The notes beneath the pieces are model-generated. The model saw only the letters and a list, made by a program, of their open reading frames with translations, did no database searches and had not been told where the DNA came from. A program made the position numbers and the translations under genes. A DNA stretch of 64,000 nt from Variovorax sp. ZS18.2.2 (lineage in GTDB: Bacteria; Pseudomonadota; Gammaproteobacteria; Burkholderiales; Burkholderiaceae_C), in the NCBI RefSeq assembly GCF_024701975.1, contig NZ_JANLNM010000001.1, positions 1,116,001-1,180,000 of the forward strand. The letters are read 5' to 3'. Numbering within the stretch: the first letter of the stretch is position 1; the number at the start of each line of letters is the position of its first letter. Shown here in pieces: positions 45,084-55,632 of this stretch.

Positions 45084-46145
45084 CTAAGTTGCGGCGAGCC
45101 CGTTCATGAGCCCGCTGCGCGCGTGGCAGTTGATGTACTCGTAGCTCTGCTCGTCTGCCTTGAGCACCGACACCTCGTGGTACACGCGAAGCTGAAGCTG
45201 GAAGTTCAGCGCCTGCACATAGCGCATGAAGCTGCCGAAGATCGCGACATGCGTCGGGTGCGACTCCGCCCAGCGCTCCATGTCGGCGAGCGAGCGCCAG
45301 TAGCTCAGGCCGAAGGACTTCTGCAGCGGCGCGCCCTTCGCGTCGAGGTGGTGCATGTAGCGGTTGCTGTAGCAGCCGATGCCCAGGCCCTGGTCGCGCA
45401 AGAAATCCATGCCTTCGCGCAGCACCGGCTCCATGTCTTCCAGGTAGAGCGTGCGTTCCTGGCCGGTGGTGTCGGTCCACTCCTGGCCGGAGCGGATCAT
45501 CGCGATGTTCTCGTGGCCCGCGATGCGCACGCGCTGGCCAGATGCCGGCGTGCCTGCGATGACCGCGCGCGTGCCCGAGGGCGACAGCGCATCGGTCTGC
45601 GAGAGCGGAATGCGGTCGCGCATCGAACCCCAGTAGCCGTGCTCCTGCAGCTCGCCGCTGACCTCACCCATCACCACGCCGACGCCCTCGAAGCGGTCCG
45701 GCGTGTTGAACATCGTCTCGAAGTGCTCGACGCGCGGCGAGGCGATTTCGCGGAAGTAGCCGAGGCCTTCGTTCAATCGTTCGTTGGAGTGCCACCATGC
45801 GTCGATGGCAGGCGTGGCACTCCAGCGCGCGAAGGCTGCGGCGTCGTCCCAGTAGGCGATGGCGACCATGTTGTCGTAGCCATCGGCATCGACGTAGTGC
45901 GTGAGGTCGTGATGGCCCGGTCCGTCGGGCTCCGCGAAATCGCGCGCGATCTTCATCAGCGCGGCGCAGGCGCGGCCCTGCATCTCGGGGCCGCGCGACT
46001 GCACGCCGAAATAGCCCATCACCACCTGCGTCATCGAGGCCGGCGCGCGGGCCGACCAGACGGGGTAGGGCGGTGTGTAGTCGTCCTCGACGCGGCGGTG
46101 CCGCGTACGGGGGCATTTCAGGTGTTCGGCGATGGCGGATTCCAT
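45084..46145 (-). CDS. oxd: Aldoxime dehydratase (phenylacetaldoxime dehydratase family, heme enzyme)
   Basis: 353 residues, the length of characterised Oxd enzymes, which dehydrate aldoximes to nitriles with a ferrous heme. Candidate functional residues fall at or near the published family positions: His299 (SHPTHVAIF) as heme ligand, His323 (VYHEVSVL) as the distal catalytic His, Arg178 (MRDRIPL) and Ser219 (MIRSGQEW). The start is 'MESAIAEHLKCPRTR'. It is 16 bases after the nitrilase gene, giving an aldoxime-nitrile-acid pathway. The symbol is generic. Confidence 0.9.
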   Translation of the reverse strand: MESAIAEHLKCPRTRHRRVEDDYTPPYPVWSARAPASMTQVVMGYFGVQSRGPEMQGRACAALMKIARDFAEPDGPGHHDLTHYVDADGYDNMVAIAYWDDAAAFARWSATPAIDAWWHSNERLNEGLGYFREIASPRVEHFETMFNTPDRFEGVGVVMGEVSGELQEHGYWGSMRDRIPLSQTDALSPSGTRAVIAGTPASGQRVRIAGHENIAMIRSGQEWTDTTGQERTLYLEDMEPVLREGMDFLRDQGLGIGCYSNRYMHHLDAKGAPLQKSFGLSYWRSLADMERWAESHPTHVAIFGSFMRYVQALNFQLQLRVYHEVSVLKADEQSYEYINCHARSGLMNGLAAT

Positions 46146-46161
46146 GGCGGGGCTCCGGGCG

Positions 46162-47196
46162 TCAGGCAGCGAGCTGCAGGCGCGGCTCGGTGCCCGCGGC
46201 CACCGCTTCCGGCACGCTGCTCTCGGGCTCGGGCGAGCGCTGCAGCACCACAGGCTCGCGGCGCGTCTTGTTGAGCAGCAGCTGCGTGACGTCGGGTCGC
46301 GAGTAGTGGCCGCTCGGATCGGCCGCCGCCTTGGCGAGCGAGATCATGCCGAGGTCGATGTCGGCGATCACCAGGCCTTCCTGGTCTTCGGCCAGTGGCG
46401 TGCCGAGCGGCGAGCCGTCCGGCGCATAGATGCGTGCGTAGCCGCCGCCGGTGCGCAGCATCTGTTGCTTGCCGGCATCGGTGCACATCAGCTCGCTCAT
46501 CGCAGGCGAGACCGTGGCGCACGGCGCGACCACGAAGCACTGGCCCTCGGCTGCGTAGACCTGGCTCGCGGCGTTGTTGACCTCCGGCCCGAGCGCATAG
46601 GCCGCGCCGCGGTAGAGCGAGAAGCTGGGCCATGCGCCGCAGTGGATCTGCTCGTTCTGCGCATACATCGCGTATTTGCTGAGCGGCTGCAGGTGCTCCC
46701 AGCACGAGAGCGATCCGACATTGCCGATGGCCGTCTCGGCCACGGCGAGGTCGGAGCCGTCGCCTTCGCCGAACACAGTGCGCTCCACGTGCGTGGGCTT
46801 GAGCTTGCGGCGCGTCTGCACGGTGTTGCCCTGGTCGTCGATCAGCGCTTGCGCGATGTAGAGGCTGCCCGCGGCCTTCTCGCTGTAGCCGAGCGACACC
46901 CAGATGCGGTGCTTGCGCGCCGCGTCCTTGATGCGGTCGAACTCGGCCGAGCCGACCACCAGCGCGTTGTCGTGGTAGCGCTGCACGAACTGCATGCCCC
47001 AGGCGGGCGAATCGAGCCAGATCCACCACGGGTAGCCGGGCACCCAGGTCTCGGGAAAGGCGATGAGCTTCACGCCCTGGCCCGCGGCCTGGGCCATGAG
47101 GTCGATGGTCTTGTCGATGGTGCCGTCGAGGTCGAGGAACACGGGCGCGGCCTGCACGGCGGCGACGCGGAGCTGGGGGTGAACGGTGGTGGGCAT
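46162..47196 (-). CDS. Nitrilase
   Basis: 344 residues from ATG 47196. Nitrilases hydrolyse nitriles to the acid and ammonia. The Glu-Lys-Cys triad is clear: Glu49 in 'LIAFPETWVPGYPWW', Lys131 in 'RRKLKPTHVERTVFG', and Cys165 in 'GSLSCWEHLQPL'. The 'GYPWW' and 'CWEH' texts are typical of true nitrilases rather than amidases. With the neighbouring aldoxime dehydratase it should take aldoximes to carboxylates. It is the first gene of a leftward unit, divergent from an AraC-type regulator. Confidence 0.95.
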   Translation of the reverse strand: MPTTVHPQLRVAAVQAAPVFLDLDGTIDKTIDLMAQAAGQGVKLIAFPETWVPGYPWWIWLDSPAWGMQFVQRYHDNALVVGSAEFDRIKDAARKHRIWVSLGYSEKAAGSLYIAQALIDDQGNTVQTRRKLKPTHVERTVFGEGDGSDLAVAETAIGNVGSLSCWEHLQPLSKYAMYAQNEQIHCGAWPSFSLYRGAAYALGPEVNNAASQVYAAEGQCFVVAPCATVSPAMSELMCTDAGKQQMLRTGGGYARIYAPDGSPLGTPLAEDQEGLVIADIDLGMISLAKAAADPSGHYSRPDVTQLLLNKTRREPVVLQRSPEPESSVPEAVAAGTEPRLQLAA

Positions 47197-47245
47197 GGCG
47201 GGCTTCCGGAGGTGGTGGATGAAACAACTTCGCACACCCCCAAAC

Positions 47246-47274
47246 GCGGGTTTGCGCGGTGGCATGCGGGTTGC
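47246..47274. repeat. Direct repeats in the nitrilase/AraC intergenic region
   Basis: GCGGGTTTGC (47246-47255) and GCGGGTTGC (47266-47274) start 20 bases apart, close to two turns of the helix. That is the standard layout of AraC/XylS binding half-sites. They lie about 50 to 80 bases from the nitrilase start. Confidence 0.45.
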
Positions 47275-47363
47275 TTGAAGCGTAGATTCGCCGCCGCGGA
47301 ACGCCTTGATCCGAACTGGCGGCGTTCTTGTTCCAGCGTTGCACGCGCTTTCCGGGGACCCCC

Positions 47364-48326
47364 ATGAACCAGTTGCTCAGCACCGATGCCGTGGCGCGCG
47401 ACCAGCGCCTGGCCTACTGGACCGACATGATCTGCAACGTCTACGTGCAGCTCGGGTGCGACCCGGTGCGGCCGGACGACATCGGCCGCTTCGAAGGCAG
47501 CATCCGACAGCACTCGCTGCCGAGCCTCGATGTGTCGGTGGTCAAGTCAGGCGCGCAGAAGGTCATGCGCACAAGCGGGCACATCGCGCGCTCGGGCGAC
47601 GACTACTTCCTCGTGAGCATCCAGGCGCAGGGGCGTGGCGTGGTGCGCCAGGACGGGCGCGATGCGGTGCTCTCGGCCGGCGACTTCGCGCTGTACGACA
47701 GCACGCGGCCCTACCAGCTGCTCTTCGACGACAAGTTCGAGCAGATCGTGCTCAAGCTGCCCGGCGAGCGCCTGCGCAGCGAACTGCGCGACACCGAGGC
47801 GCTGACGGCGACCACGGTGTCGGGCAAGGAGGGCGCGGGGCATCTCTTGCTCGGCATGATCCGCACGCTGCGCGAAGACATCGACACGCTGCAGCCCGCA
47901 TCGGCGCTGGCCGTCGCCAACGGCGTGCAGAGCATCCTCGTGGCAGGCCTGCAGACGCTGCCGGCGGCGCGTGCGCCCTCGCTGAGCAACCTCACGGCGT
48001 ACCACCTCGCGCGCGTGAAGCGGTGCATCGACGAGCAACTGGCCGATCCTTCGCTGTCAGTCGGCAGCATCGCGGCTTCGCTCGGGGTGTCGGCGAGCCA
48101 CGTCCATCGCGTGTTCAAGAGCGAGCCGCTGACGCCCTCGCAGTACATCTGGGAACGCAGGCTCGATGCCTGCAGCCGCGACCTGCTGGAGCCGCGGCTT
48201 GCGGGCAAGCCGGTAGGGGAGATCGCGTATGGGCGCGGTTTCAACGATGCGGCGCATTTCAGCCGCGCATTCCGCGAGAGATTCGGCTGCTCGCCGCGCG
48301 AGTGGCGGCAGCAGCGGGTGCAGTAG
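47364..48326 (+). CDS. AraC/XylS-family transcriptional activator
   Basis: 320 residues. The N-terminal domain ('VSVVKSGAQKVMRTSGHIAR', 'SAGDFALYDSTRPYQLLFDD') is the ligand-binding type seen in FeaR- and XylS-like activators. The C-terminal double helix-turn-helix has 'SVGSIAASLGVSASHVHRVF' and 'IAYGRGFNDAAHFSRAFRER'. It is divergent from the nitrilase-aldoxime dehydratase genes, which it probably activates in response to an aldoxime, nitrile or related aromatic acid. Confidence 0.92.
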   Translation: MNQLLSTDAVARDQRLAYWTDMICNVYVQLGCDPVRPDDIGRFEGSIRQHSLPSLDVSVVKSGAQKVMRTSGHIARSGDDYFLVSIQAQGRGVVRQDGRDAVLSAGDFALYDSTRPYQLLFDDKFEQIVLKLPGERLRSELRDTEALTATTVSGKEGAGHLLLGMIRTLREDIDTLQPASALAVANGVQSILVAGLQTLPAARAPSLSNLTAYHLARVKRCIDEQLADPSLSVGSIAASLGVSASHVHRVFKSEPLTPSQYIWERRLDACSRDLLEPRLAGKPVGEIAYGRGFNDAAHFSRAFRERFGCSPREWRQQRVQ

Positions 48327-50480: not shown

Positions 50481-50595
50481 GGTTGGCGATTGTAGTTTCC
50501 CGGGGAATGGGGCCCGCCGGCAGGGCGCGCGGTGCCTTGTCTGGCATGGATTCTGCTGCCTTCGCAGTGGCCTTTCAAACATTTATAGCCACCTC

Positions 50596-52194
50596 ATGAC
50601 CACGAAGAACAACACTCTATTCAGTCGGCGTGATCTGCTCACGCTCATCGGCAAGACCGCCGGCGGCGGCGCGATGTACCAGGCGATGACTTCTCTCGGT
50701 TTCGCTGCCGAGTCCAACTACAGCGGCCCTCCGAAACTCGATGGTGCAAAGAAGGGCGCTTCGGTGCTGGTTCTTGGTGCAGGTCTGGCCGGCATGGCCG
50801 CTGCACTCGAGCTGCGCGCCGCGGGCTACTCGGTGAAGGTGCTCGAGTTCAGCAACCGTGCAGGCGGCCGCTGCTGGACGCTGCGCGGCGGCGACACCTT
50901 CACCGAACTCGGTGGCGCGGTGCAGCAGTGCGGTTTCGCGAAGGGCGAGTACTTCAATCCCGGTCCGTGGCGCATACCTTTTCATCACCACGCGGTGCTC
51001 GGCTACTGCAAGCGGCTGGGCGTTGCGCTCGAGCCTTTCATTCAAGTCAACTACAACGCGCTCGTGCATTCGACCAAGGCCTATGGCGGCAAGCCGCAGC
51101 GCTATCGCCATGTGCAGGCCGACTACCAGGGCTATGTGGCCGAGTTGCTCGGCAAGGCGACGCAGCAGGGCAACCTCGATGCGGCCCTGACGAAAGAAGA
51201 CAAGGAAAAACTGCTCGAGGGCCTGCGCCGCTGGGGCGCGCTCGATACGCAGTTCCGCTACCGCGAAGGCACCATCAGCAGCGACCGCCGCGGCTACGAA
51301 GTCGATGCGGGCGGCGGCCTCATGCCGCTGGCCAAGCCCTCGAAGCCGCTCGACATGAGCGAGCTGCTGCAATCAAGCCTTTGGCGTTACATCGCAAGCG
51401 GACAAGACTACGAATTCCAGAGCGCGATCTTCCAGCCCGTGGGCGGCATGGACATGATCGCCAAGGCTTTCCAGAAAGAAGTCGGCAGCCTCATCCGCTA
51501 CGGTGCGAAGGTCACGAAGATCGAGCAGAACGACCGCGGCGTCACTGTCACTTACACCGACGAAGCCAAGGGCGGCGCGGTCACGCAGGCCAAGGCCGAC
51601 TGGTGTTTGTGCACCATTCCGCTGTCGGTGTTGAGCCAGATCGACATCCAGGTCGGCGCCCCGATGCAGGAGGCGATCAACGCCGTGCCCTATGGCGCAT
51701 CGGTGAAAGTGGGCCTGCAGTTCAAGCGCCGCTTCTGGGAAGAAGACGAGCACATCTACGGCGGCATCAGCTACACGGACCTCCCGATCTCGCGCATCTC
51801 GTACCCCTCGACACGCTACGGCGCCAAGGGCAAGGCCGTAGTGCTCGGCGCCTACGTGTTCGACGGCCCGAACTCCTACGAATTCACCGCGATGGCACCC
51901 GAGGAGCGCGTGCGCCGCGCGGTCGAGTTCGGCACGCAACTGCACCCGCAGTACGCACGCGAATTCGACAACGGCATCTCGGTCGGCTGGCACCGCGTGC
52001 CGGGCTCGCACGGCTGCTACGGCATGTGGACCGACGAGACGCGCCAGAAGCACTACAAGAACCTGTGCCAGGTCGACGGGCGCATCGCGCTCGCGGGCGA
52101 ACACGCTTCCTACATTCCGGCCTGGCAGGAGGGCGCGCTGCTCTCGTCGCTCGACGCCATCCAGCGGCTGCACGCCCGCGCCGTCGCCGCGTAA
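50596..52194 (+). CDS. Tat-exported flavin amine oxidase
   Basis: 532 residues. N-terminal twin-arginine signal SRRDLLTLIGKTAGG predicts folded export to the periplasm with FAD already bound. The dinucleotide fold is 'VLVLGAGLAGMAAALELRAAG', followed by the family 'NRAGGRCWTLRGG'; the C-terminal FAD motif is 'GRIALAGEHASYIPAWQEGA'. It belongs to the monoamine oxidase superfamily. The next two genes encode a cytochrome c and an exported RidA protein, which suggests it hands electrons to the cytochrome rather than to oxygen, as known for nicotine oxidoreductase NicA2. Amine substrate unknown. Start ATG 50596 has no strong ribosome site. Confidence 0.92.
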   Translation: MTTKNNTLFSRRDLLTLIGKTAGGGAMYQAMTSLGFAAESNYSGPPKLDGAKKGASVLVLGAGLAGMAAALELRAAGYSVKVLEFSNRAGGRCWTLRGGDTFTELGGAVQQCGFAKGEYFNPGPWRIPFHHHAVLGYCKRLGVALEPFIQVNYNALVHSTKAYGGKPQRYRHVQADYQGYVAELLGKATQQGNLDAALTKEDKEKLLEGLRRWGALDTQFRYREGTISSDRRGYEVDAGGGLMPLAKPSKPLDMSELLQSSLWRYIASGQDYEFQSAIFQPVGGMDMIAKAFQKEVGSLIRYGAKVTKIEQNDRGVTVTYTDEAKGGAVTQAKADWCLCTIPLSVLSQIDIQVGAPMQEAINAVPYGASVKVGLQFKRRFWEEDEHIYGGISYTDLPISRISYPSTRYGAKGKAVVLGAYVFDGPNSYEFTAMAPEERVRRAVEFGTQLHPQYAREFDNGISVGWHRVPGSHGCYGMWTDETRQKHYKNLCQVDGRIALAGEHASYIPAWQEGALLSSLDAIQRLHARAVAA

Positions 52195-52219
52195 CGGCCG
52201 AGTGAAGGACACACCCACC

Positions 52220-52642
52220 ATGAACAACAGCAACCCCACGACCTTCCAGCGCGCACTGCTCGGCCTTTCGTTCGGCGCCATCGCCGCGATGAGCGGCCAA
52301 GCTTTTGCGCAATCGCCCGAGCCCACGTTCTCCGTCGGCCCCCGGTTCCAGGAGAGCTCGGGCGAGTCGATCTACCGCGCCACCTGCCAGGGCTGCCACA
52401 TGGCGCAGGGGCAGGGCGCGAAGGGCGCGGGCGCCTACCCGCCGCTCGCATCGAATCCGCGGCTCGCGAGCGCGGAGTACCCGCTCTACGTGGTCATCAA
52501 CGGCCAGAAGGGCATGCCCGCCTTCGGCAAGATGCTGAGCGACGAGCAGATCGCCGCGGTGGTCGGCTATACGCGCACGCATTTCGGCAACCAGTACGCG
52601 GATGCCATTCCCGCGGAGAGCGTCAAGAAGCTGCGGCCTTGA
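52220..52642 (+). CDS. Exported class I cytochrome c
   Basis: 140 residues. Signal peptide to about residue 31 (cleavage near AFAQ), heme motif CQGCH (Cys56, Cys59, His60) and likely axial Met99 in 'GQKGMPAFGKM'. Mature size near 11 kDa. It is 25 bases after the amine oxidase gene and 62 bases before the RidA gene, the position expected for an electron acceptor in a dehydrogenase module. Confidence 0.93.
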   Translation: MNNSNPTTFQRALLGLSFGAIAAMSGQAFAQSPEPTFSVGPRFQESSGESIYRATCQGCHMAQGQGAKGAGAYPPLASNPRLASAEYPLYVVINGQKGMPAFGKMLSDEQIAAVVGYTRTHFGNQYADAIPAESVKKLRP

Positions 52643-52704
52643 CTTCATCGCGACATCCGGCAGATCCTTCCTTGATTCATCCACCCAGCAGAGAGACAAC
52701 ACGC

Positions 52705-53238
52705 ATGACCATGACCCTTATCACCCAGACGAAGAAACTGGCGCTCGCCGCCGCCCTGTTCGCAGCCGCTTGCGGTGCTGCACATGCGGCCGACGAAATC
52801 ATTCGCCACCGCATTCCGAACTCCACCTTCCCGATCGCGGCGGCAGTGGAAGTTCCTTCTTCGTTCACCAATGTCTACCTCTCGGGCCAGGTGCCGCCGC
52901 TGCAGGATCCGGCCGCGCCCAAGAACACCGTCGCTGCGTATGGCGGCGATACCAAGGGCCAGACCGTCGGCGTGCTCAAGGCCATCGAGAAGAGCCTCAC
53001 GGGCCTTGGTCTCACGATGGGCGACGTGGTGAAGATGCAGGTGTTCCTGGTGGGCGACCCGGCCAAGGACAACAAGATGGACTTCGCCGGCTTCATGGAG
53101 GGCTACACCCAGTTCTTCGGCACCACCGCGCAGCCCAAGCTGCCGGTGCGCTCGACGATGCAGGTGGCCGCACTGGCCAACCCGGCCTACCTGGTCGAGA
53201 TCGAGGTGATGGCGGTCCGTCCGGCCAAATCGAAGTAG
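52705..53238 (+). CDS. Exported RidA/YjgF-family imine deaminase
   Basis: 177 residues: Sec signal peptide (cleavage near residue 29, HAAD) followed by a complete RidA domain. The substrate-binding Arg is kept (Arg149 in 'LPVRSTMQV') and the C-terminal acidic residues are Glu165 and Glu167 in 'YLVEIEVMAV'. RidA proteins hydrolyse reactive imines and enamines to ketones or aldehydes plus ammonia. Export is uncommon for the family. Here it follows an amine oxidase that makes imines, so a periplasmic imine-clearing role is reasonable. Confidence 0.9.
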   Translation: MTMTLITQTKKLALAAALFAAACGAAHAADEIIRHRIPNSTFPIAAAVEVPSSFTNVYLSGQVPPLQDPAAPKNTVAAYGGDTKGQTVGVLKAIEKSLTGLGLTMGDVVKMQVFLVGDPAKDNKMDFAGFMEGYTQFFGTTAQPKLPVRSTMQVAALANPAYLVEIEVMAVRPAKSK

Positions 53239-53317
53239 CCCCGCCAACGACCAGAGTGGCACAGCAGCCACAACTTTCGACTTAGCCGAACCGCCCCAGG
53301 GCCTAAAATCCCGCCCG

Positions 53318-53552
53318 TTGGTGCTCGCGCCGTGGTTCACACGGCGCAGTTCAACGGGAAGCAGGAGTGAACGCCCCGAGAGATCCGGAAACCCGGACAT
53401 CGGACCAAGGCCGAAGCCGCCTGCGCTGCCCCCGCAACGGTCAAGCAGACGGCGCCGCAAGGCGCCACCCCTTTCCATCCAGCCACTGGGCGCCCTGAAA
53501 CAGGCGCCTGGGAAGGCGACAGGGGCCGTTCTGCCAGCCCGGATACCGGCCA
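53318..53552 (+). promoter_or_regulatory. Cobalamin riboswitch
   Basis: About 235 nt upstream of btuB. Conserved blocks appear in order: 'GGGAAGCAGGAGTGA' near 53356, the B12 box region 'GCTGCCCCCGCAACGGT' (53426-53442), 'AGCCACTGG' (53481-53489), 'GGGAAGGCG' (53510-53518) and 'AGCCCGGATACC' (53536-53547). It binds adenosylcobalamin and should shut off the eleven genes that follow. A -10 hexamer TAAAAT at 53304-53309 precedes it. The 118 bases after it hold GC-rich hairpins, presumably the expression platform, but no clear T-tract terminator. Confidence 0.93.
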
Positions 53553-53670
53553 ACAAGGCGGCTGCCGCATGCATGAACGAATAGAACCGGTTCATGCCCG
53601 CGGCGGTCATTGCGCCCAGGGCGCCGGCGGGGAGGCCGGCCAGGGGCATTGACGTTCGTTCGGCTCACTC

Positions 53671-55632
53671 ATGATTTCCTGCGTTATTCATTCCCGCGCT
53701 GCTCGCGGTCGCGCGCCTGCGCCCATCCGCCATCGCGGCCTTGCCTGCCTGCCGCTCGCGCTGGCCTCGGCCTTCGGCGGCCTTGCACTGTTCCAACTGC
53801 CCACCCTGGCGAATGCGCAGGAAAAAGCAGCAGCCACGCTGGGCGAAACGGTGGTCACGGCCAACCGCACGCCGCAGCCGCTGTCGGACCTGGTGGGCGA
53901 CGTGTCCATCATCGATCGCCAAACCATCGAGCGCAGCGGCGCGACCGGCGTGGCCGACGTGCTGGCGCGCCAGCCCGGCATCGAGATCACGCGCAACGGC
54001 GGCGTGGGCAACACCACCAGCCTGTACATCCGCGGGGCCGAGACGCGCTTCACGGCCGTCTACCTCGACGGCGTGCGCATCGACTCGCAATCGACCGGCG
54101 GTGCCGGCTGGGAAGGCATTCCGCTCGCGCAGATCGACCGCATCGAAGTGCTGCGCGGCCCGGCCGCCGCGGTGTATGGCTCGGACGCCATCGGCGGCGT
54201 GATCCAGCTCTTCACCAAGCGCGGCGAAGAGGGCGTGTCGCCTTATGCGGGCATCGGCTTCGGCAGCCATGGCCTGCGCAAGATCGAAGGCGGCGTGAGC
54301 GGCAAGTCGGGCCTGTTCGACTATTCGTTTGGCGTCGCGCATGAAGAGAGCAAGGGCTTCAATGTGCAGCCTGCCGACAAGCGCACGCCCTCGAAGGACG
54401 GCTTCACCAGCCCCGACCGCGATGGCTACCGCAGCACTTCGGGCAACCTGAAGCTGGGCTTCCAGATCACGCCCGACCAGCGCATCGACGCCACCTTGCT
54501 CCAGAGCAACATCGAAGCCGGCTACGACAACGCGGTCAGCTTCAGGACCAGGCCGCCGATCCTCTTCAGGAACGACGTCTCGAACAACACGCTGCGCACC
54601 GCCGGCCTCACCTGGTCGGCCAAGTGGAACGACATCTACAGCACCCGCGTGCAGGTGACCGACTCGCAATCGGTCTACAAGACGCAGCCTTCGTTCTACC
54701 GCACCGAAACCAACCTGCGCGGCTACCTGTTCCAGAACGAATTCCGCTTCGGCCCGCACCTGGTGACGGCCACGCTGGAACGCCGTGAAGACGCGCTGGA
54801 AAACGCACCTACCACCTCGGCCAAGCTGCTCTCGCAAGACCGCTCGCAGAACGCGCTGGCGCTCGGCTACGGCTTCGTGCAGGGCCCCCATTCGCTGCAA
54901 CTGCATGTGCGCCGCGACAAGGACAGCGAGTTCGGCGGCAAGACCACCGGCAGCGCCGCCTACGGCTTCGCCATCCTGCCGTCGCTGCGCTTCACCGCAT
55001 CGGCCGGCACAGCCTTCCGCGTGCCGACGCTGTATCAGCGCTTCAGCGAATACGGCGTGGCGACGCTCCGGCCCGAAGACAGCCGCAACGTCGAACTGGG
55101 CCTGAACTACGCCAAGGACGGCACCACCGCCGGCATCGTGGTCTACCGCAACCGTGTGCGCAACATGATCGACTTCGTGGGCACCGCCACCGGCTGCGCC
55201 TCGTCGTTCGGCTGCTACACCAACGTGAAGCGCGCCACCCTGCAGGGCGCCACGCTGTCGGCCAGCCAGCGCATTGGCGACGTCACGCTGCGCGCCTCGT
55301 TCGACGTGCAGGACCCCAAGGACGCCGAAACCGGCAACCTGCTCGCACGCCGCGCCAAGCGCCACGGCACGCTGGGCGCCGACTGGCGCGTGGCAGGCTG
55401 GACGCTGGGCGCCGAAGTGCAGGCCTCGAGCCAGCGCTACGACGACTCGGCCAACAAGGTCAAGCTCGGCGGCTACACGCTGCTGAACCTGTCGGCCAGT
55501 ACGCAGATCACACGGGACCTGAACCTCGTGGCCCGCATCGACAATGTGGGCGACAAGGACTACCAGTACGCACGCCTCTACGCCAACGGGGGCCGCAGCG
55601 CCTACCTCGGCCTCAAGTGGACACCGCAGTAA
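53671..55632 (+). CDS. btuB: TonB-dependent outer-membrane receptor for cobalamin (BtuB)
   Basis: 653 residues. An N-terminal extension and signal peptide of about 49 residues are followed by the TonB box ETVVTANR and a plug domain ('IERSGATGVADVLARQPGIE', 'VLRGPAAAVYGSDAIGGVIQ'), then a 22-strand barrel ending in the expected aromatic 'SAYLGLKWTPQ'. B12 riboswitch control and the downstream B12 genes support corrinoid specificity. It shares 16 bases with cobB. Confidence 0.93.
   Translation: MISCVIHSRAARGRAPAPIRHRGLACLPLALASAFGGLALFQLPTLANAQEKAAATLGETVVTANRTPQPLSDLVGDVSIIDRQTIERSGATGVADVLARQPGIEITRNGGVGNTTSLYIRGAETRFTAVYLDGVRIDSQSTGGAGWEGIPLAQIDRIEVLRGPAAAVYGSDAIGGVIQLFTKRGEEGVSPYAGIGFGSHGLRKIEGGVSGKSGLFDYSFGVAHEESKGFNVQPADKRTPSKDGFTSPDRDGYRSTSGNLKLGFQITPDQRIDATLLQSNIEAGYDNAVSFRTRPPILFRNDVSNNTLRTAGLTWSAKWNDIYSTRVQVTDSQSVYKTQPSFYRTETNLRGYLFQNEFRFGPHLVTATLERREDALENAPTTSAKLLSQDRSQNALALGYGFVQGPHSLQLHVRRDKDSEFGGKTTGSAAYGFAILPSLRFTASAGTAFRVPTLYQRFSEYGVATLRPEDSRNVELGLNYAKDGTTAGIVVYRNRVRNMIDFVGTATGCASSFGCYTNVKRATLQGATLSASQRIGDVTLRASFDVQDPKDAETGNLLARRAKRHGTLGADWRVAGWTLGAEVQASSQRYDDSANKVKLGGYTLLNLSASTQITRDLNLVARIDNVGDKDYQYARLYANGGRSAYLGLKWTPQ

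Follow-up and report, generated by a model that had tools for sequence, protein, structure and literature searches.

The 64,000-nucleotide stretch of Variovorax sp. ZS18.2.2 analysed here (the window) carries three plus-strand genes that fill positions 50596–53238 and encode a flavin amine-oxidase-family protein, a cytochrome c and a Rid protein. From sequence and from analogy with described systems, we read this trio as a probable periplasmic L-amino acid dehydrogenase module, linked to cytochrome c and equipped with an accessory imine hydrolase; we put the probability of this reading at roughly 0.74. Comparison of relatives shows that the cytochrome, rather than the Rid protein, is the near-constant partner of the oxidase, and that Rid is optional. 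This comparative evidence is new here, as is the prediction that the clade of L-amino acid oxidase (LAAO)-type enzymes containing the window's oxidase consists of respiratory dehydrogenases. The gene set itself is not new: a first-pass annotation of the window knew of no description of it, but it was published in 2016 as lao-cccA-ridA (PMC5053998).

In the proposed mechanism, the flavin adenine dinucleotide (FAD) enzyme would be exported in folded form by the twin-arginine translocation (Tat) pathway, and would act on an L-amino acid bound by Arg126, with Tyr420 probably helping to hold it, oxidising its alpha-carbon. FADH2 would then give up its electrons one by one to the monoheme cytochrome c encoded alongside and exported by Sec; this cytochrome would in turn feed a terminal oxidase, while the exported Rid protein would speed hydrolysis of the imino acid to 2-oxo acid and ammonia. 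Of this scheme we infer the export of the proteins, the electron acceptor, the substrate class and the role of Rid. Candidate uses of the module include nitrogen or energy gain, supply of 2-oxo acids, and supply of indole-pyruvate for auxin.

Organisation of the trio

The first gene, lao-like (50596–52194), encodes a predicted FAD-dependent L-amino acid oxidase or dehydrogenase of 532 amino acids. The protein begins MTTKNNTLFSRRDLL and matches Amino_oxidase (PF01593) over residues 64–521 with 193.2 bits, above the gathering score. Residues 1–38 (50596–50709) form a putative Tat signal region with the motif SRRDLL, which fits the SRRxLL pattern and places the Arg-Arg pair at residues 11–12. After 25 bp comes a cccA-like gene (52220–52642) for a monoheme cytochrome c of 140 amino acids; it matches Cytochrome_CBB3 (PF13442, 58.4 bits, above gathering score), has a Sec-like leader (residues 1–30) ending AFA-Q and contains one haem-binding motif, CQGCH (52385–52399). 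The rid gene (52705–53238) follows after 62 bp. Its 177-residue product matches Ribonuc_L-PSP (PF01042, 64.5 bits, above gathering score) and has a Sec-like leader (residues 1–28) ending AHA-A. The positions, order and kinds of the three consecutive genes are thus as first annotated, and the claims of a single-haem cytochrome and of export signals on all three products also held, the latter as a Tat motif and two Sec-like leaders recognised by motif and hydropathy.

Constancy of the cytochrome gene and variability of Rid

To place the trio among its relatives, we compared 119 oxidase loci, 39 from the organism's own genome and from sets of family and phylum genomes, and 80 from named genomes. 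The named loci were the best 80 of at least 576 confirmed relatives and are biased to close ones; they comprised 33 from Alpha-, 31 from Gamma-, 12 from Beta- and 2 from Epsilonproteobacteria and two without an assigned class, and spanned 34 named genera. Neighbouring genes were sought with profiles on loci in which the oxidase was masked, and CxxCH was required for the cytochrome. Of the 119 loci, 106 contained a cytochrome relative with this motif and 73 contained a Rid relative. A tree of 118 loci was built with FastTree, with local support values; the fragment L010 was left out, and three long branches (L011, L021 and L031) are placed with less certainty. To score the partner state, only genes lying downstream of the oxidase, on its strand and no more than 2 kb away, were counted. 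By this measure 62 loci had both partners, 43 the cytochrome only, 8 Rid only and 5 neither, and the order oxidase–cytochrome–Rid was kept in all 62 full trios. The neighbourhood is beyond chance. Conserved co-occurrence, which the first-pass annotation had proposed as a check, was therefore found for the full trio in about half of the loci, but Rid is dispensable.

The two partners differed in their behaviour on the tree. In the window's clade, the cytochrome gene lay downstream in 105 of 107 loci, whereas none of the 11 loci outside the clade had a cytochrome of the window's kind; in three of these (L028, L029 and L031) a gene for a diheme cytochrome c lay between the oxidase and Rid genes. 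The cytochrome state changed 3 times on the tree and the Rid state 22 times, the latter count omitting L041, whose contig ends 768 bp after the oxidase. Residue 125 of the oxidase, beside the active-site arginine, followed the same division, being Trp in all 107 clade members and Ala in all 11 loci outside.

Constancy of the cytochrome together with inconstancy of Rid favours a dehydrogenase over the main alternative, a true periplasmic L-amino acid oxidase. Such an oxidase would use O2 as acceptor and make H2O2, with the cytochrome c serving in peroxide removal or belonging to some other partner; the peroxide may also help to decarboxylate the 2-oxo acid. We consider this unlikely, although it draws on the identity of the closest solved relative and on a conserved flavin lysine, both described below, since a cytochrome gene retained through the clade with so few changes argues against it.

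Absence of Rid from the 43 loci with a cytochrome only has to be read with the extent of the sequence in mind, as L041 ends early and loci from the family and phylum sets extend only about 1.5 kb. Six genomes with a Rid-less oxidase locus were searched whole: three have a match to the window's Rid elsewhere, and the other three have no match to it anywhere (E 1e-15 in both cases). A shared replacement for Rid was sought in 41 Rid-less loci, but the longest open reading frames (ORFs) after the cytochrome gene, compared by their starts, differ between loci. At one further site, two oxidase genes (L018 and L037) point towards each other on one contig with about 1.4 kb between them; the intervening stretch contains the L018 cytochrome gene, which may be shared by the two.

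Sequence and predicted fold of the oxidase

The top solved relative of the oxidase by sequence was the Rhodococcus opacus L-amino acid oxidase 2jae, with 312 bits, and the next distinct solved sequence, an ancestral animal LAAO, scored 153.9 bits. The window protein shares 183 of 469 aligned residues with 2jae, and overall identity to 2jae and 2jb1 is 37–39%. An AlphaFold2 model (mean predicted local distance difference test score, pLDDT, 80.6; residues 1–38 below 50) superimposed on 2jae chain A with a Z score of 50.1 and a root-mean-square deviation of 2.3 over 473 residues, compared with Z 37.5 for the next different protein. In its own genome the oxidase matched only itself (E 1e-5).

Among the 119 relatives, Arg126 (codon 50971–50973), Lys371 and Trp510 are each invariant, and the Tyr420 position holds Tyr in 116, the other 3 having Phe. 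The twin-arginine pair is also well kept, with Arg12 in all 119 and Arg11 in 115, the remaining 4 having Lys. Arg126 aligns with residue 83 of the 2jae chain as listed, which we take to be Arg84 in literature numbering and the carboxylate-binding arginine of the R. opacus active site. Lys371 is presumably the flavin-N5 lysine of amine oxidases. The window enzyme thus resembles the R. opacus protein in its whole modelled fold and in its active-site Arg, Trp and Lys, whose roles we assume to be the same. The LAAO-type sequence, the predicted fold and the invariant Arg126 together make an L-amino acid the likely substrate. The earlier description of the protein as an FAD amine oxidase therefore stands as regards the fold, but the enzyme is likely of LAAO type, acting on an L-amino acid and not on a generic amine. 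The R. opacus enzyme is named an oxidase; its use of O2 as acceptor is the feature that we expect not to hold for the window enzyme.

The same data bear on the possibility that the oxidase is a NicA2-type amine or alkaloid dehydrogenase whose substrate is an amine other than an amino acid. Arg126, presumed to bind the substrate carboxylate, is invariant, and the sequence and fold comparisons both single out 2jae. No chain called nicotine oxidoreductase occurs among the 60 solved matches listed of 102, several of which are named only 'Amine oxidase', and NicA2 is not named among the 50 VIA-align structure matches listed for the model, which excludes nothing. Substrate range can shift within one fold, and the gene logic is that of nicA2-cycN, in which a Tat enzyme is paired with a Sec cytochrome (PMC12224317). 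On balance we regard a non-amino-acid substrate as highly improbable.

Cytochrome and Rid proteins

All 106 neighbouring cytochrome ORFs contain exactly one CxxCH. Leaders were scored as a hydrophobic 12-mer of mean hydropathy at least 1.6, a threshold that we set ourselves, within 45 residues before the domain. Such a segment was present in 97 of the 106 cytochrome ORFs; of the nine below the threshold, seven rise above it once the entire N-terminal part is considered, and two come near (1.47 and 1.58). The same test detected a leader in 69 of 73 neighbouring Rid ORFs. As a control we examined the Rid proteins of the organism's own genome, where 15 hits fall in 12 loci: only the window Rid passed, with a value of 2.44, and the remaining 11 loci were below 1.6, the highest at 1.59. 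Motif and hydropathy therefore predict export of all three products of the trio.

The best solved relatives of the window Rid were PSPTO_3006 and PFL_1385 (9bka and 9bkc, 118 and 110 bits). Both have been assigned to Rid3 and described as imine and iminoarginine deaminases, and the imines on which Rid3 proteins act include products of an amino acid oxidase and of DauA (PMC5619798). A conserved arginine is catalytically essential for imine hydrolysis in groups from RidA to Rid3, and genes for FAD amine oxidases are found in clusters with Rid genes (PMC4433059). Arg149 of the window Rid (codon 53149–53151) is Arg in all 73 neighbouring Rid proteins and, judged by the alignments, probably occupies the place of this residue. 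The window protein scored 46.3 bits against NCBIfam TIGR00004 (Rid family detoxifying hydrolase), below the cut-off of 106.25. The initial assignment to RidA is thus retained at the level of the Rid imine-deaminase family, but by its PF01042 domain, its conserved Arg and its nearest solved relatives the protein appears closest to Rid3.

In two loci outside this pattern, L035 and L036, a Tat-type oxidase without a cytochrome neighbour is accompanied by a leaderless Rid. The oxidase and Rid proteins of these loci may be in different compartments, or the oxidase may be unexported.

Comparison with described systems

The closest published counterpart is lao-cccA-ridA (GDI2456–2454) of the sugarcane bacterium Gluconacetobacter diazotrophicus (Rodrigues et al. 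2016, PMC5053998). Its three genes are of the same kinds, in the same order and on one strand, and its oxidase has a Tat-type signal and an amine oxidase domain. Six very short peptides derived from GDI primers lend weak support to orthology: close to where they are expected, the window proteins match them at only 2–4 of 6–7 positions. In that organism, two Tn5 insertions in lao left tryptophan unused and abolished indole-acetic acid (IAA) formation. Earlier mutants in cytochrome c maturation (ccm), cited in the same paper, made about 5% as much IAA as the wild type, a loss of about 95% that argues against a true oxidase. The paper also states that the organisation is conserved in Caulobacter and Xanthomonas, and the trio was present in all six Xanthomonas loci that we fetched.

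In the superfamily of flavoprotein amine oxidoreductases, a Tat signal and an adjacent cytochrome c gene predict cytochrome-using dehydrogenases (Akram et al. 2025, PMC12224317). Twelve enzymes were newly tested there with the cytochrome encoded next to them, and eight strongly preferred it over O2, which likewise argues against a true oxidase in the window. The NicA2 and Pnao dehydrogenases share with the window trio a Tat flavoenzyme and an adjacent Sec-type monoheme cytochrome c, export being recognised in the window by motif only. Cytochromes vary both in that superfamily and among the window's relatives, where the diheme form in L028, L029 and L031 recalls the c4-type cytochromes of clade 1. 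The window trio differs in its LAAO-type enzyme and in the presence of a Rid gene, and the main text of PMC12224317 contains no mention of amino acid oxidase, L-amino acid, LAAO, RidA, imine, Variovorax or Xanthomonas. Electron transfer to a cytochrome c as in NicA2, and removal of the imine by Rid, both suggested by the first-pass annotation, are supported by these comparisons rather than by assay.

A third system lends some weight to oxygen as acceptor. Chlamydomonas LAO1 is an LAAO located outside the cell, and a putative RidA gene (LAO2/RIDA) lies next to its own; the enzyme produces indole-pyruvate and IAA from tryptophan, and it makes H2O2 (PMC10805672). This system is eukaryotic, unlike that of the window, and the available part of the source mentions no cytochrome c gene for the cluster.

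Genomic context and distribution within the genus

Upstream of the trio, on the opposite strand, are zapB- and zapA-like genes. Downstream lie a cobalamin riboswitch (53303–53568; 50 bits, gathering score 31.5) and a TonB-dependent-receptor-like gene (53671–55632), called by inspection. These flanks make the trio a stand-alone unit.

The oxidase was present in 10 of 101 genomes of the genus, at 95–99% identity to the window protein, and the closest of the best 80 named loci was that of Variovorax sp. EL159, at 97%. All three genes adjoin zapB in the nine other carriers. Among eight genomes sampled from the 91 non-carriers, six have riboswitch-like DNA and a btuB-like gene immediately after zapB, and the riboswitch–receptor junction is the right-hand edge of a block absent from these genus-mates; in the other two, no btuB was found within the 1.5 kb of sequence examined. 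Flanking similarity ends at 50495–50507 and resumes at 53259–53313, giving an approximate extent of 50508–53258 for the block, which is a discrete unit of gain or loss. In Variovorax sp. EL159 (L040, 8620–10818), about 2.2 kb separate rid from btuB, compared with about 0.4 kb in the window.

Despite the high protein identity, 4-fold sites of the oxidase differ by 8–28% within the genus. In nine loci the differences for the oxidase are 0.08–0.27, compared with 0.04–0.32 for tauE and 0.05–0.47 for zapA, the latter from few sites and scattered. As silent divergence of the oxidase is of the same size as that of tauE, we reject the idea that the block spread recently among the genus members sampled; in the carriers it was inherited in place. 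Protein identity of 95–99% against such silent-site differences is counted in favour of selection on the oxidase in the genus.

At a distance of 3–6 kb from the trio are genes for an aldoxime dehydratase (45084–46145, minus strand) and a nitrilase (46162–47265, minus strand), with a FeaR-like AraC regulator (47328–48326, plus strand) divergent from the pair. The interval 45084–48326 reads as an aldoxime-to-nitrile-to-acid module and ends 2.3 kb before the trio. A functional link between this pair and the trio was set aside, as the AraC-type regulator, usp, tauE and zapAB lie between them.

This neighbour is nevertheless one reason to ask whether the main job of the trio in the genus is conversion of tryptophan to indole-pyruvate for IAA, a role that would be compatible with the dehydrogenase reading. 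The loss of IAA in G. diazotrophicus lao mutants (PMC5053998) also speaks for it. Against it, the intervening genes separate the nitrilase pair from the trio, and the close relatives are spread over 34 named genera. The organism's own genome has no indole-pyruvate decarboxylase above cut-off (best score 122.7 against 946 bits), but this is weak evidence, because all 14 control genomes also gave only sub-cut-off matches. Auxin formation as the main job seems to us unlikely, though it is a possible output of the module in plant-associated hosts.

Discussion

Several observations weigh against a cytochrome-linked dehydrogenase with accessory Rid. Some concern the enzyme. The flavin lysine Lys371 is retained in the oxidase and in all 119 relatives, and the nearest solved relative, 2jae, carries the name L-amino acid oxidase. 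The R. opacus L-amino acid oxidase uses O2 well. The match of Tyr420 requires a gap moved by hand, the gapped alignment as printed placing the literature tyrosine on Val421. Others concern the partners: an oxidase–cytochrome pair lacks a downstream Rid in 43 of 118 loci, L078 has neither partner, and L037 has no cytochrome downstream on the same strand. Four of the 73 Rid ORFs fall below the leader threshold, L031 barely, L067 being cut short and L035 and L036 leaderless. The module is, moreover, a minority trait, with a match in 10 of 200 family genomes (E 1e-20; the full trio in nine, counting the organism's own, and in one a fragment that lacks the two partners) and in 27 of 398 phylum genomes (E 1e-30). 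In PMC12224317, a B. anthina pair used O2 and cytochrome at rates called comparable, and three clade 1 pairs were slow with both. We found no kinetic or other biochemical data on the window's clade in the open-licence literature.

A broader proposal is that the clade as a whole is a cytochrome-c-dependent dehydrogenase lineage on the LAAO branch, separate from NicA2 and Pnao and widespread in Proteobacteria, whose enzymes, likely to be annotated as L-amino acid oxidases, would feed respiration without forming H2O2 and have an exported Rid as accessory, with Trp125 marking the switch. We regard this proposal as evenly balanced between true and false.

If the dehydrogenase reading is true, widespread bacterial LAAO-type genes encode respiratory dehydrogenases, and bacteria that make auxin through lao do so by a respiratory reaction free of peroxide, which would explain the loss of IAA in G. 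diazotrophicus ccm mutants. Natural controls for the switch in O2 reactivity within the superfamily exist among the relatives, whose neighbouring cytochrome may be monoheme, diheme or missing, and the trio offers a test of Rid function outside the cytoplasm.

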